A stretch of 33,261 nt of DNA, taken from positions 1 through 33,261 of the forward strand of contig REEK01000059.1 of the NCBI GenBank assembly GCA_007695115.1. Reading direction: 5' to 3'. A model generated the notes under the pieces. The model did not search any database. It saw only the letters and a program-made list of their open reading frames with translations, and was not told the DNA's origin. The stretch comes from Sphaerobacteraceae bacterium (GTDB lineage: Bacteria > Chloroflexota > Chloroflexia > Thermomicrobiales > Thermomicrobiaceae). A program made the translations under genes and the position numbers. Positions 21,312 to 27,150 of this stretch are shown one piece after another; position 1 is the stretch's first letter; each line of letters starts with the position of its first letter.

Positions 21312-21866
21312 ATGAGCAGCGATCAGGCACACGAGGACCAACAGGAAGATTCAACCCCGCGATCGAAGATCAAATCGCGGAAAGAGATCGAGCAGGAGAA
21401 GAGTCCGACTCCGGCGCGGCGTCCAACGCCGACCTCAATACTGCTCTACGTCGGCCTGGTCGTCGTCCTGTACATCTACTGGGCGCTCTTTCCCGGGTTC
21501 CCACCGCTGGAACTCGAAGCCAACCTGGGCACGTCTATCTTCATCCGTCTGCTGGTGATCTTCCTGCTGATCAACCGATCGGTGGTTGGCTGGTTCATCG
21601 GAATCGTGCTGGAAACGATATACATCATCGTCTTCTCGTTCCAGATCGCGTCCATCGGTGGAGATAGCGCCGCAAAACTCTGGGGATTGCTCTTTCTGGC
21701 AATCGCAGCACTGGCGCTCTTGTTGACCCGCACCTCCCGCCATCACGTCTGGTCGAAGGGTGATGAAGCAGAGCCGGATGCACACACCTTCAAGAGCACC
21801 ACGACCGATGATCAGGCGGAACCGGCGTCATCTTCTTCGAGATCGTCGTCTTCTTCCTCCATGTAG
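21312..21866 (+). CDS. Membrane protein of unknown function with polyserine tail
   Basis: The product has 184 residues. The N-terminal 40 are charged and probably cytoplasmic (DQAHEDQQEDS, KSRKEIEQEK). About four hydrophobic helices follow between residues 43 and 140. The C-terminus is hydrophilic and ends with a run of serines. It starts 10 nt after the permease, with CGGAG just upstream, so it is the last gene of the DUF420/ABC operon and may assist it. The last 55 bases overlap the end of the molybdoenzyme gene on the other strand. The serine run is the antisense image of that gene's Glu/Asp run, so the tail is probably shaped by overlap rather than function. Confidence 0.75.
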   Translation: MSSDQAHEDQQEDSTPRSKIKSRKEIEQEKSPTPARRPTPTSILLYVGLVVVLYIYWALFPGFPPLELEANLGTSIFIRLLVIFLLINRSVVGWFIGIVLETIYIIVFSFQIASIGGDSAAKLWGLLFLAIAALALLLTRTSRHHVWSKGDEAEPDAHTFKSTTTDDQAEPASSSSRSSSSSSM

Positions 21867-23380
21867 ACCGCGGTGACCACGATTTCGTGCAGGCCGGTGG
21901 AACCGTCCGGGAGCGCTGACTGCTCTTCCTCGATCTGTGGAGTGCCGTCACCTTCGTAGGCCCGGGCATAGATCCAGCTCGACTTCTCTTCCTCCGGCAC
22001 CCAATCGTAAGACCATCGCACCCAGCTGCTGTCCGACAAGGCATCTTCGACCTCGGCATCGACCCATGTCTGCATACTATCCACTGAAACTTCAACCCGG
22101 GAGATGCCCCGATCTCCGGAGTACGCCACACCACCAATCAGTGTCGGTTCACCAACCGGCACATGGCTCTGATAGAACGGCGTCACGATCTTGGACATGG
22201 TGAGCACCGGCGCTTCATCCGACCAGCCCCGCTCCTGCCAGTAACCGGTATAGACCTCAGGAACCGGCTCGATCCGGTTGATCCACTTGACGTGCTTCAT
22301 TCCATAGATACCTGGAACCACCAGCCGGAGTGGGAACCCATGCTGATCCGGGAGTTGCTGCCCGTTGAGCTGGTAGGCCAGAATCACATCGTCCGACATC
22401 GCCTTCTCCAGCGTGATGGAGTCCGAGTAATCGTCCTCCGCATGGAGTGCCACATCGACCACCCCATCCCGAACACCCGCCTGCTCCAGAATCGCGCGCA
22501 AGGGAACACCGGTCCACTCGCCATTGCTGATGTACTCACCACCAACGGTGTTGCTGATGCACTCCAGCGTGGTGACCTGGGTAACGGACTCCATCTCCAG
22601 AATGTCATCGTAGGTGAAGCCGATATCGGTTTCGACTTCGCCATCGACAACCAGAATCCAGTTGTCTGCGTTGACCGTGGGATCAACCACATTCTTGGAA
22701 ACCGTGTAGAAGTCACCCAGTGGCGTAATCGCCGGCGGAAGTTCACCTTCCGTGTCGGTCAGTCCGGTCGGTTGACTTCGGGTGGCCAGGCCATCCATGA
22801 ATCGTCCGAGGTAGGCGACGGAGATGACCGCCGGAACACCGAGCGTCGCCCAGCGCATGAAGCGGCGGCGGCCTGGATCGATCTCGACCCCATCACGCTC
22901 CAGCGCACTGAAGACACCGGTGACGATCGCCACCCCGAACACGCCAGCAATGACGAAGAAAGCCAGCATCGCGTTCGATGCTCCCGCAGTCGAGTCCATC
23001 GCGAAGATGCCGAGTCCACCGAGAGGAGCCATCACCAGACCGAGCATTAGCCAGACGGCACCGATCAATCCGGGCAGAACCAGCCAGGGAGAGGTGCCCC
23101 GCCGCATGATGTTCTCGGTCGCCAGACCGATGAACCCGCTGACGATCACCTGACCGAGCACGATCCCGGCAAACGCGAGTGGTTTGGCCCACGATTCCAG
23201 GAAGCCGAGAATCTGACCGAACGTCTCGACGGGAATGATCGCGGTCATCCGGTCCGAGAGCATCTGGGGAACAACCGGCGCGCGCCAGAGATCCCCGAGG
23301 GCGATCATGACTGCGGTTGCCAGGACGCCAGCAATCAAGCCAGAGTAGAAACCGGGGCGGCGGATGAAGTCGAAGGACAT
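21812..23380 (-). CDS. Membrane-anchored molybdopterin oxidoreductase, sulfite-oxidase fold
   Basis: The product has 522 residues. The first 160 hold about four membrane helices. Then GRRRFMRWATLG (170-181) precedes a fifth hydrophobic segment; this looks like an internal twin-arginine signal. The catalytic domain (about 215-420) has TLECISN with C274 as the likely molybdenum ligand, GEWTGVPLRAILEQAG, and LPDQHGFPLRLVVPGIYG followed by KHVKWI, all classic for the sulfite oxidase/YedY family. A Mo-co dimerisation domain follows (GVAYSGDRGISRVEVSVD). The last residues are acidic. The enzyme should work outside the membrane and pass electrons to or from a respiratory partner, perhaps through its own helices; no haem motif is visible. 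Substrate unknown. Confidence 0.88.
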   Translation of the reverse strand: MSFDFIRRPGFYSGLIAGVLATAVMIALGDLWRAPVVPQMLSDRMTAIIPVETFGQILGFLESWAKPLAFAGIVLGQVIVSGFIGLATENIMRRGTSPWLVLPGLIGAVWLMLGLVMAPLGGLGIFAMDSTAGASNAMLAFFVIAGVFGVAIVTGVFSALERDGVEIDPGRRRFMRWATLGVPAVISVAYLGRFMDGLATRSQPTGLTDTEGELPPAITPLGDFYTVSKNVVDPTVNADNWILVVDGEVETDIGFTYDDILEMESVTQVTTLECISNTVGGEYISNGEWTGVPLRAILEQAGVRDGVVDVALHAEDDYSDSITLEKAMSDDVILAYQLNGQQLPDQHGFPLRLVVPGIYGMKHVKWINRIEPVPEVYTGYWQERGWSDEAPVLTMSKIVTPFYQSHVPVGEPTLIGGVAYSGDRGISRVEVSVDSMQTWVDAEVEDALSDSSWVRWSYDWVPEEEKSSWIYARAYEGDGTPQIEEEQSALPDGSTGLHEIVVTAVYMEEEDDDLEEDDAGSA

Positions 23381-23465: not shown

Positions 23466-23580
23466 GTATACGAAAAATCGGGCCCGAATGGATGGAACTC
23501 CATGCTCACCCCGCCTCTTCCAGCGTCGGGAGAAGATCGGACAGAGGGCTGTTCAATGTAGCACTACACCCTGCATATAG

Positions 23581-23672
23581 CTGTCATTCCGACCGCAGCG
23601 GAGGAATCTCGATCGTCCCGTACGTCGACACCTGCAGGCATCTCAGATCTCTCGACAAGCTCGAGATGACAG
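23581..23672. repeat. TCATTCCGA-type dispersed repeat
   Basis: The element opens CTGTCATTCCGACCGCAGCG with GAGGAATCTCG after it, and closes TCGACAAGCTCGAGATGACAG, so CTGTCAT (23581) and ATGACAG (23666-23672) are inverted ends. I recall such GAGGAATCTC sequences as abundant intergenic repeats in Chloroflexota and some other phyla. No transposase is present. Confidence 0.6.
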
Positions 23673-23714
23673 GTTCGACGTCGGGAAGCGTTGGCGATCA
23701 GCGCAGAGTCTTCT

Positions 23715-23738
23715 CCCTCTCCCAGTATTGGGAGAGGG
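23715..23738. repeat. CCCTCTCCCA hairpin repeat
   Basis: CCCTCTCCCA (23715-23724) and TGGGAGAGGG (23729-23738) form a perfect 10-bp stem with a 4-nt loop, followed by TCGGGGTGAGGG. This is a widespread type of bacterial intergenic palindrome. Confidence 0.55.
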
Positions 23739-23786
23739 TCGGGGTGAGGGCCGCTATTCCAGGGCTTCGGTCAGGAGATCAAGGTT

Positions 23787-23819
23787 AAAAGAAAAAGGGG
23801 CCGTGGGAGAGACGGCCCC
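23787..23819 (-). terminator. Strong intrinsic terminator on the minus strand
   Basis: On the minus strand GGGGCCGT (23819-23812) pairs with ACGGCCCC (23804-23797) around a 7-nt loop. TTTTTCTTTT (23796-23787) follows directly. This is the best terminator in the window. It faces away from aspartate dehydrogenase, so it must end a minus-strand transcript, most simply the candidate small RNA. Confidence 0.8.
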
Positions 23820-23941
23820 GGTACAGGGAGGGCGGGGAAACGCTGAAGCGGGTGTGAACGCTTGCGGCGTTCAGCCTGCTTGCAATCTGGGGGCAGATTG
23901 CGGTTTTCCCCCCGAGCTATACGTAGTGTACGTACGCTCTG
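23788..23941 (-). ncRNA. Candidate structured small RNA of about 150 nt
   Basis: On the minus strand a near-consensus promoter (23975-23948) would start transcription near 23941. The RNA then meets a 5' hairpin: GAGC/GCTC (23939-23936 with 23917-23914) and TACGTA/TACGTA around a 3-nt loop. A three-way junction follows. Its outer stem is GGGGAAA (23834-23840) with TTTCCCC (23905-23911). Arm one is GCAATCTG/CAGATTGC (23882-23901). Arm two is AAGCGGG/CCTGCTT (23846-23881), capped by GAACGC/GCGTTC. It ends at an 8-bp GC hairpin with a U tract (23819-23787). Nearly all of it is paired and no open frame fits. It does not match SRP RNA, 6S RNA or a riboswitch I recognise, and the nearest downstream gene on this strand starts about 400 nt away. 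Confidence 0.6.
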
Positions 23942-23947
23942 ATACCT

Positions 23948-23975
23948 ATTGTACGTACACCCAGAAATTTGTCAA
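23948..23975 (-). promoter_or_regulatory. Near-consensus sigma-70 promoter on the minus strand
   Basis: On the minus strand TTGACA (23975-23970) is followed after 16 nt by TACAAT (23953-23948). The -35 is perfect and the -10 matches five of six. No protein gene starts nearby in this direction; the first thing transcribed is the structured RNA. GTACGTAC palindromes overlap the -10 (23951-23958) and recur at about 23928-23935. Confidence 0.6.
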
Positions 23976-24084: not shown

Positions 24085-24870
24085 ATGGCTGCCCCGCTTC
24101 GTGTTGGACTCATCGGCCTGGGCGCAATCGGTCAGGATCTCGTGCGCCTGGCGCAGAAAACCGCTCCAGATCAGATCGAATTCGTTGGCGCGATCGTGCA
24201 GAACCTCGATAAACCGGATCGTATGCTCCCGGTGTTCGGTTCCGTCGACGAGATCATGACCCGGCACCCAGAAGTCTTTCTGGAGGTCGCCGGACACGAA
24301 GGGCTCCGCACACACGGCATCGAGGTACTGAACCGGGGTCTGGATCTCTATTTTCTGGCGGTCGGATCGCTGGCCGATCCCGGCTTTGAGTCCGAGTTCC
24401 GCGCTGCGGCCGAGGCATCGAACGGCCAGGCGATCGTGGTCTCCGGGGCAATCGGGGCGCTGGACGCCATCTCGGCGGCGAAGGCCGGTGGTCTTGATCG
24501 GGTTCAGCACACGGTCCGCAAGCATCCGGCAACACTCCTCGGCCCGGACGAAGGCGCCGGAATCACCGACGAAACCGAGGTCTTCCGTGGAAACGCTCGA
24601 GATGCCGCACTTGCCTATCCGGAGAGTGTCAACGTCACGGCCGCTGTCAGCTTCGCGGGAATCGGACTGGACCGCACCGAGGTTGTGGTGATGGTCGATC
24701 CGGCGGTCGATCGAAACGTGCATACCGTCGAGGCCGAAGGGGCATTTGGCTCCCTGCGATTCGAGATCCGGAACGTTCCGAGTGCGCAGAATCCGAAAAC
24801 CGGCGCACTCGTAGCAATGAGTTGCCTGCGGCAGCTCCGCAAACGCCGGGACGGGATCGCCGTCGGCTAA
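24085..24870 (+). CDS. nadX: L-aspartate dehydrogenase
   Basis: The product has 261 residues from the ATG at 24085, chosen because AGGAG lies 6 nt upstream and the Rossmann fold begins at once. The frame stays open further upstream but runs through the RNA candidate. The NAD(P) motif is LRVGLIGLGAIG (GxGxxG at 11-16). Typical phrases follow: EVFLEVAGHEGLRTHG, FLAVGSLADPG, IVVSGAIGALDAISAA, VRKHP and the C-terminal NPKTGALVAMSCLRQLR of the DUF108/aspartate dehydrogenase family. The enzyme interconverts aspartate and iminoaspartate/oxaloacetate with NAD(P)H. In some bacteria it supplies iminoaspartate for NAD synthesis, but no nadA or nadC lies here, so a catabolic role is possible. Its stop overlaps the stop of the converging glycosyltransferase gene. 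Confidence 0.88.
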   Translation: MAAPLRVGLIGLGAIGQDLVRLAQKTAPDQIEFVGAIVQNLDKPDRMLPVFGSVDEIMTRHPEVFLEVAGHEGLRTHGIEVLNRGLDLYFLAVGSLADPGFESEFRAAAEASNGQAIVVSGAIGALDAISAAKAGGLDRVQHTVRKHPATLLGPDEGAGITDETEVFRGNARDAALAYPESVNVTAAVSFAGIGLDRTEVVVMVDPAVDRNVHTVEAEGAFGSLRFEIRNVPSAQNPKTGALVAMSCLRQLRKRRDGIAVG

Positions 24871-26561: not shown

Positions 26562-26590
26562 TTGACACAGACTGACTCACTATTTAGAAT
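26562..26590 (+). promoter_or_regulatory. Strong sigma-70 promoter for hsp20
   Basis: TTGACA (26562-26567), exactly 17 nt, then TAGAAT (26585-26590). Transcription would start near 26597, giving a leader of about 80 nt. No CIRCE inverted repeat or heat-shock operator was seen, so control may come from elsewhere. Confidence 0.7.
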
Positions 26591-26676: not shown

Positions 26677-27150
26677 ATGGTTATGCGTCGACATCCGTGG
26701 GCCGAGTTCACTCGTCTCTTCGATGAAATGGATCGAGCATTCGGCGATACCATCGATGGAGGTCGCTCGACCCCGTTCAACCGTGGATTCCGGCCAGCTA
26801 TCGATCTGTACGACACCGGCCAGGAGTTGATCGTTCATGCGCTGCTGCCAGGCACTCGACCGGAGGATCTGGACGTAAACCTGGAGCAGAATACGCTGCA
26901 CATCTCCGGATCGTATGGCTACGAGCACCCGGAAGAGCAAACTCATCAGTGGAACTGGTATCGGCGTGAGATCGGCTCCGGTCAGTTCACCCAGAGCGTG
27001 GCTCTGCCGGCGCCGGTAGATAGCGAGCAGATTGAAGCGCACCTCGAATGGGGTGTCTTGACGCTACGGATGCCGAAGGCTGAACAGGCACGCACCCGCC
27101 GGATCGAAATCAGCCAGCCGAAAGCGCTGAGCAGCGAACATCAGGGCTGA
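26677..27150 (+). CDS. Hsp20 / α-crystallin family small heat-shock protein
   Basis: The product has 157 residues. The N-terminus (RRHPWAEFTRLFDEMDRAFG) is the usual amphipathic arm. The α-crystallin domain (about 45-140) includes PAIDLYDTGQELIVHALLPG, EDLDVNLEQNTLHISGSYG, FTQSVALPAPVDSEQIEAHL and the closing ENGVLTLxxPK-like motif, here EWGVLTLRMPKAE. The C-terminal extension carries RRIEIS, in the place of the I-x-I/V anchor. Such proteins hold unfolding proteins in oligomers without ATP. A very good ribosome site (GGGAGGTGA) precedes the ATG, and a near-perfect promoter lies upstream. It is a single-gene unit with hairpins at its end. Confidence 0.93.
   Translation: MVMRRHPWAEFTRLFDEMDRAFGDTIDGGRSTPFNRGFRPAIDLYDTGQELIVHALLPGTRPEDLDVNLEQNTLHISGSYGYEHPEEQTHQWNWYRREIGSGQFTQSVALPAPVDSEQIEAHLEWGVLTLRMPKAEQARTRRIEISQPKALSSEHQG

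Follow-up and report, generated by a model that had tools for sequence, protein, structure and literature searches.

A predicted small RNA gene in Thermomicrobiaceae with operator-like palindromes at its promoter and a conserved C-rich run before its terminator

Results

A predicted transcription unit between two metabolic genes

The window (the whole 33,261-nt stretch of DNA analysed) carries a predicted small RNA on its minus strand, flanked by a molybdopterin oxidoreductase gene and a divergent aspartate dehydrogenase-like gene. The features of the locus are as follows.

21812..23380, minus strand: molybdopterin oxidoreductase gene (PF00174, PF03404); downstream flank, outside the RNA
23787..23941, minus strand: predicted small RNA transcript, about 150 nt (from fold, promoter/terminator, and identity in G002 and G001)
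23787..23796, minus strand: terminator T-run (from sequence)
23797..23819, minus strand: terminator stem-loop GGGGCCGU...ACGGCCCC (terminator scan and alignment)
23820..23837, minus strand: C-rich seed region CCCCGCCCUCCCUGUACC with core CCCUCCCUGUACC; core invariant in 16/16 aligned homologues
23834..23840, minus strand: 3' strand of the junction-closing stem P1, UUUCCCC (sequence and fold comparison)
23846..23881, minus strand: second junction hairpin (fold); stem kept in G001 despite sequence changes
23882..23901, minus strand: hairpin GCAAUCUG-CCCC-CAGAUUGC (fold); identical in G001
23905..23911, minus strand: 5' strand of P1, GGGGAAA; lengthened to GGGGAAAAG in G001
23914..23939, minus strand: 5' hairpin (predicted fold); predicted in G001 too
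23927..23936, no strand assigned: operator-like palindrome O2, CGTACGTACA, just past the predicted start and making up most of the 5' hairpin
23948..23953, minus strand: -10 hexamer TACAAT, 16 nt from the -35 hexamer
23950..23959, no strand assigned: operator-like palindrome O1, TGTACGTACA, overlapping the -10 hexamer; matches the AraR box consensus core
23970..23975, minus strand: -35 hexamer TTGACA, conserved in homologues with the complete unit
24086..24870, plus strand: aspartate dehydrogenase-like gene (PF01958, PF03447); divergent flank, outside the RNA

An earlier note on this DNA, made from the sequence alone, had described a minus-strand TTGACA-16-TACAAT promoter, and this is present at 23975-23948 with 11/12 matches. 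The intrinsic terminator that it placed up to about 23787 is likewise there (stem 23819-23797, T-run to 23787), but its score is not above chance. Within 7 kb, 2 promoter-like sites were observed against 2.3 expected by chance, and 4 terminator-like sites against 4.0. Since promoter and terminator scores alone do not exceed chance, it is the comparison with relatives that lifts the transcription unit above it. The minus strand contains no open frame inside the 23941-23787 transcript, as the note had also stated; downstream, its next gene begins at 23380, beyond a repeat-bearing spacer of about 400 nt. The repeats of this spacer are interspersed ones (23570-23671 and 23704-23755); about 50 matches to them occur elsewhere in the genome, most of them to a unit of about 45 nt at 23704-23755.

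The RNA unit is conserved in relatives

Sister genome G002 matched the window at 100% over the 155 nt between the predicted start and the T-run, and its downstream gene was 93.7% identical; past the terminator, only half of the spacer aligned, at 77%. The RNA unit of G001 was 86.5% identical, versus 70-75% for genes. By this comparison, the constraint on the RNA unit is greater than that on coding DNA.

In a DNA search of 61 genomes, 18 gave a match, most of them over the last ~45 nt only. Among named relatives of this Thermomicrobiaceae-type genome (Chloroflexota), those that share the motif are Sphaerobacter, Thermalbibacter, Thermomicrobium and Thermomicrobiaceae MAGs; one Streptomyces match to that pattern lay in an unrelated context. 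A covariance model built on this 3' module found 18 of the 21 genomes of the Thermomicrobiaceae family (E<1e-8, one strong match each). Outside the family, the match was strong in G028, weaker in G025 and perhaps present in G027; G025 and G028, which belong to another family of the same order, share the promoter and the C-rich run as well. No other convincing match turned up when the model was run on 158 genomes of the class and 400 of the phylum, and the match in G010 and the weak matches outside the order are probably due to chance. Searches of Rfam 15 (SRP, 6S, tmRNA, riboswitches, 6C, RsaE) at gathering and relaxed thresholds returned no match, the best chance match scoring 16.8 bits where 100 were needed. 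This agrees with the earlier statement that the RNA resembles neither SRP RNA, 6S RNA, tmRNA nor a known riboswitch. From these matches, the predicted small RNA gene is present as a single copy per genome in the heat-loving Thermomicrobiaceae and some relatives.

The molybdopterin oxidoreductase gene is the next gene on the same strand in the window and in several relatives, as would be expected if the RNA were a cis-acting leader or attenuator of that gene. However, the spacer of about 400 nt intervenes, and the conserved neighbour of the RNA gene in Thermomicrobium and Thermalbibacter is convergent, which refutes a leader as the general role. No fixed downstream gene is led: the flanking genes vary among genomes and are often convergent, and the RNA is therefore not a leader. 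The earlier view that it is no ordinary attenuator thus holds, and we regard the leader reading as very improbable. With promoter, operator, C-rich run and terminator conserved in about 20 genomes, the unit looks like a free-standing small RNA gene with its own promoter and intrinsic terminator, as the note had proposed, and we predict with high confidence that 23941-23787 on the minus strand is an independent RNA gene.

Operator-like palindromes overlap the promoter

Thirteen genomes of the order each had a single copy of the exact motif TTGACA-N(9-14)-GTACGTACAAT; the reversed control gave 0. Twelve of the 13 copies lead to the 3' module, and in the 13th (G030) the contig ends first. The promoter-operator is thus unique to the RNA gene in each genome with the exact motif.

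Homologues with the complete unit have TTGACA and a -10 hexamer, and the region of the -10 hexamer and the start carries one or two GTACGTAC palindromes. O2 is retained in all homologues with a recognisable promoter; Thermomicrobium has the downstream palindrome only, with a -10 hexamer that is mostly TATCAT, and the weaker copy in G014 is without such a promoter. The palindrome core at the promoter, GTaCGTAc, is that of a GntR/AraR-type operator. Where two palindromes are present, their spacing varies between 22 and 27 bp among homologues, and they are therefore not strictly in phase. We infer that the two GTACGTAC palindromes form a putative repressor operator. The 5' hairpin that the earlier note had placed from 23939 does exist (23939-23914), but it consists largely of the second GTACGTAC palindrome and so resembles an operator in the DNA.

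Exact TGTACGTACA sites number 15 in the window's own genome, G000 (L054-L068), i.e. 14 besides that of the RNA gene, versus ~2 expected from base composition by our estimate. Some of these sites are at promoters (e.g. L065). A TGTACGTACA regulon was considered and rejected: several sites are intragenic or lie between convergent genes, and no coherent function emerged.

The predicted fold exceeds chance, and the 5' half diverges

The predicted fold of the transcript is well above chance (z = -6.1; 0/200 shuffles were as good). The earlier note had seen a three-way junction at 23911-23834. The stems that it named exist, but the closing stem P1 has a rival in the computed minimum of the window RNA, where the C-rich run is instead paired with GGGGGG. 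The 5' half can fold as a junction in the window, G001 and G002, and G001 has both hairpins and a longer closing stem. These closest relatives are also the only ones that retain the junction, which is thus not a conserved part of the RNA: the 5' half diverges, and its sequence in G004, G007 and Thermomicrobium differs from that of the window. Two-sided changes are few in the 5' half of Thermomicrobium, and the covariation term gives no support there. In Thermomicrobium (alignment A4), GUACAG of the 5' palindrome (columns 12-17) is complementary to CUGUAC, which follows the C-rich run (columns 99-104); pairing of the two would close the whole RNA. Both elements are invariant in nearly all Thermomicrobium members, which leaves covariation uninformative here.

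A C-rich run and the terminator are the conserved part

An invariant C-rich run, CCCUCCCUGUA, lies just before the terminator. In an alignment of 16 homologues, CCCUCCCUGUACC and most of the terminator stem were invariant, and one position preceding CCCUCCCUGUACC varied. The C-rich single strand reads UUCCCUCCCUCCCUGUA in most genomes and CCCCGCCCUCCCUGUA in the window. The pairs of the terminator stem are nearly invariant within the family, which makes covariation uninformative, and only G025 supports the pairing: its terminator stem is of wholly different sequence and still pairs, while UCUUCCCUCCCUCCCUGUA is retained. The G025 comparison indicates that the terminator stem is conserved as a structure and the C-rich run as a sequence. 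The conserved and presumably functional part of the RNA is the C-rich single strand with the terminator, which the note had not singled out.

In predicted folds of G001 and most Thermomicrobium members, the seed is mostly unpaired; in the window's own minimum it is partly paired. These homologues show the conserved, exposed C-rich single strand expected of a trans-acting C-rich-seed small RNA.

Two other uses of this sequence were weighed. Many homologues have four close G-tracts on the opposite strand, so that the G-rich template could form a DNA G-quadruplex (GGGTACAGGGAGGGAGGG) to which the RNA would be incidental. G004, G008 and G025, however, have only three tracts and yet keep the C-rich sequence, promoter and terminator, and we give this explanation almost no weight. 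Alternatively, the run could bind a protein, e.g. a KH-domain protein or Rho, with the RNA acting as a protein sponge or decoy instead of pairing with mRNA. KH domains and Rho favour C-rich RNA, and the run, rich in C and poor in G, carries an exact UCCC-UCCC-UCCC repeat in most homologues. On the other hand, a protein site has no obvious need for the exact UGUA end, and we know of no single-copy protein sponge of such form. We consider a sponge improbable and regard pairing with mRNA as the likely mechanism.

Some homologues encode a small basic protein

In G005, G006, G008, G011 and G013 (loci L036, L041, L042, L043 and L086), a longer transcript encodes a conserved protein of 75-79 aa between the operator and the seed. 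The protein is basic and arginine-rich, and its frame lies just upstream of the C-rich seed. In four genomes, compared as two pairs, the frame is preceded by a Shine-Dalgarno site and has a dN/dS of 0.36-0.39, versus 1.0 or more in shifted frames. Two of the five proteins were scanned against Pfam without a match. We saw the protein only in the transcript of the RNA gene in these five genomes; a search of the order gave no other convincing copy.

In these genomes the RNA unit is an mRNA with the same 3' end, and the job of the RNA could be tied to the protein. The gene may descend from an operator-controlled mRNA for the basic protein, with the C-rich run and terminator as a 3' UTR that had a stability or regulatory role; the frame would have been lost in the lineage of the window and the UTR function left, or both functions kept as a dual-function RNA. 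This reading would account for a protein encoded between operator and seed in five genomes, for its ribosome-binding site and selected frame in the four compared, and for the lack of a confident match to it in other contexts. Against it, G025 and G028, of another family, have the operator, seed and terminator without a clear homologous frame, so that an ancestral coding form is not required. In addition, at least three genera have kept the non-coding form, which in g1 is highly conserved. We consider a dual-function or former mRNA rather unlikely; as to the seed, this reading overlaps with the explanation that we prefer. It is quite possible, if short of probable, that one promoter-operator drives a pure small RNA in some genomes and an mRNA for the small basic protein in others, the gene having passed from one form to the other in a single bacterial family while the regulatory 3' end stayed fixed.

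Candidate targets

The complement of the seed, ACAGGGAGGGAGGGAA, is G-rich like a Shine-Dalgarno region. The pattern AGGGAGGGA occurred 1-9 nt before an ATG 74 times in five genomes, versus 20 times for the reversed pattern. Orthologous pairs across genera included those for what we take, from our own reading of the N-termini, to be superoxide dismutase (SOD), RtcB and HSP20; a presumed Mn-catalase-like protein was a common candidate within Thermomicrobium. The candidate genes of G000 and G001 differ from those of the other genomes. These candidates are suggestive and serve as leads only, since strong Shine-Dalgarno sites alone would give the same AGGGAGGGA excess. The window itself has an HSP20 gene (26677-27150, plus strand), with a good promoter match TTGACA-17-TAGAAT upstream (26562-26590) and a ribosome-binding site, CAGGGAGG, with an 8-nt match to the RNA seed.

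Discussion

We favour, as the more probable account, a single-copy trans-acting regulatory small RNA, specific to Thermomicrobiaceae and certain other members of the order, controlled by a repressor and pairing via its C-rich seed with G-rich ribosome-binding sites. A putative repressor bound to the GTACGTAC palindromes would cover the -10 hexamer and the start site and keep the promoter shut until a signal arrives. The RNA, once released, would use its exposed seed to pair with mRNAs at their G-rich Shine-Dalgarno regions and so block their translation, and the GC-rich 3' hairpin would both end and protect the transcript. Our searches of the open-licence literature gave no description of a regulatory small RNA from Thermomicrobia; this RNA would be the first, and one in which promoter, operator and seed are clear.

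Related arrangements are known from other bacteria. RoxS/RsaE of Bacillus and Staphylococcus uses C-rich regions to pair with G-rich mRNA sites, and RoxS has a site for the repressor Rex directly downstream of its start site that is conserved across species (PMC5419742). The Thermomicrobiaceae RNA likewise has a C-rich sequence that would pair with such sites and an operator-like site just after the start. However, RoxS has four C-rich regions instead of one run beside the terminator, and the operator here is GTACGTAC, not a Rex box; Rfam also gave no match between the two. The 6C/B11 RNA of actinobacteria is a short structured RNA in which C-rich single strands act against G-tracts in mRNA 5' regions (PMC10470900). 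It has two C-rich loops, whereas the C-rich run of the Thermomicrobiaceae RNA is a single strand placed after the 5' domain and before the terminator, again without an Rfam match. RoxS (PMC5419742) and B11 (PMC10470900) thus establish that the C-rich mode of small RNA pairing exists.

AraR, a GntR-type regulator of B. subtilis, binds boxes with the palindrome core GTaCGTAc, often paired at a promoter (PMC4218819). The Thermomicrobiaceae palindrome equals this core, and its boxes are also paired at the promoter; here, however, they are spaced at a variable 22-27 bp and would control a small RNA. SgrS-type dual-function RNAs combine a small protein and a pairing small RNA in one transcript. The five coding homologues may do the same, but protein and RNA are unrelated to those of SgrS, and most members of the family lack the frame. 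The Thermomicrobiaceae RNA forms a new family within a known sort, unusual in that its coding and non-coding versions share one operator, and these versions under the same control offer a natural series for the origin of small RNAs from mRNAs, or of mRNAs from small RNAs.
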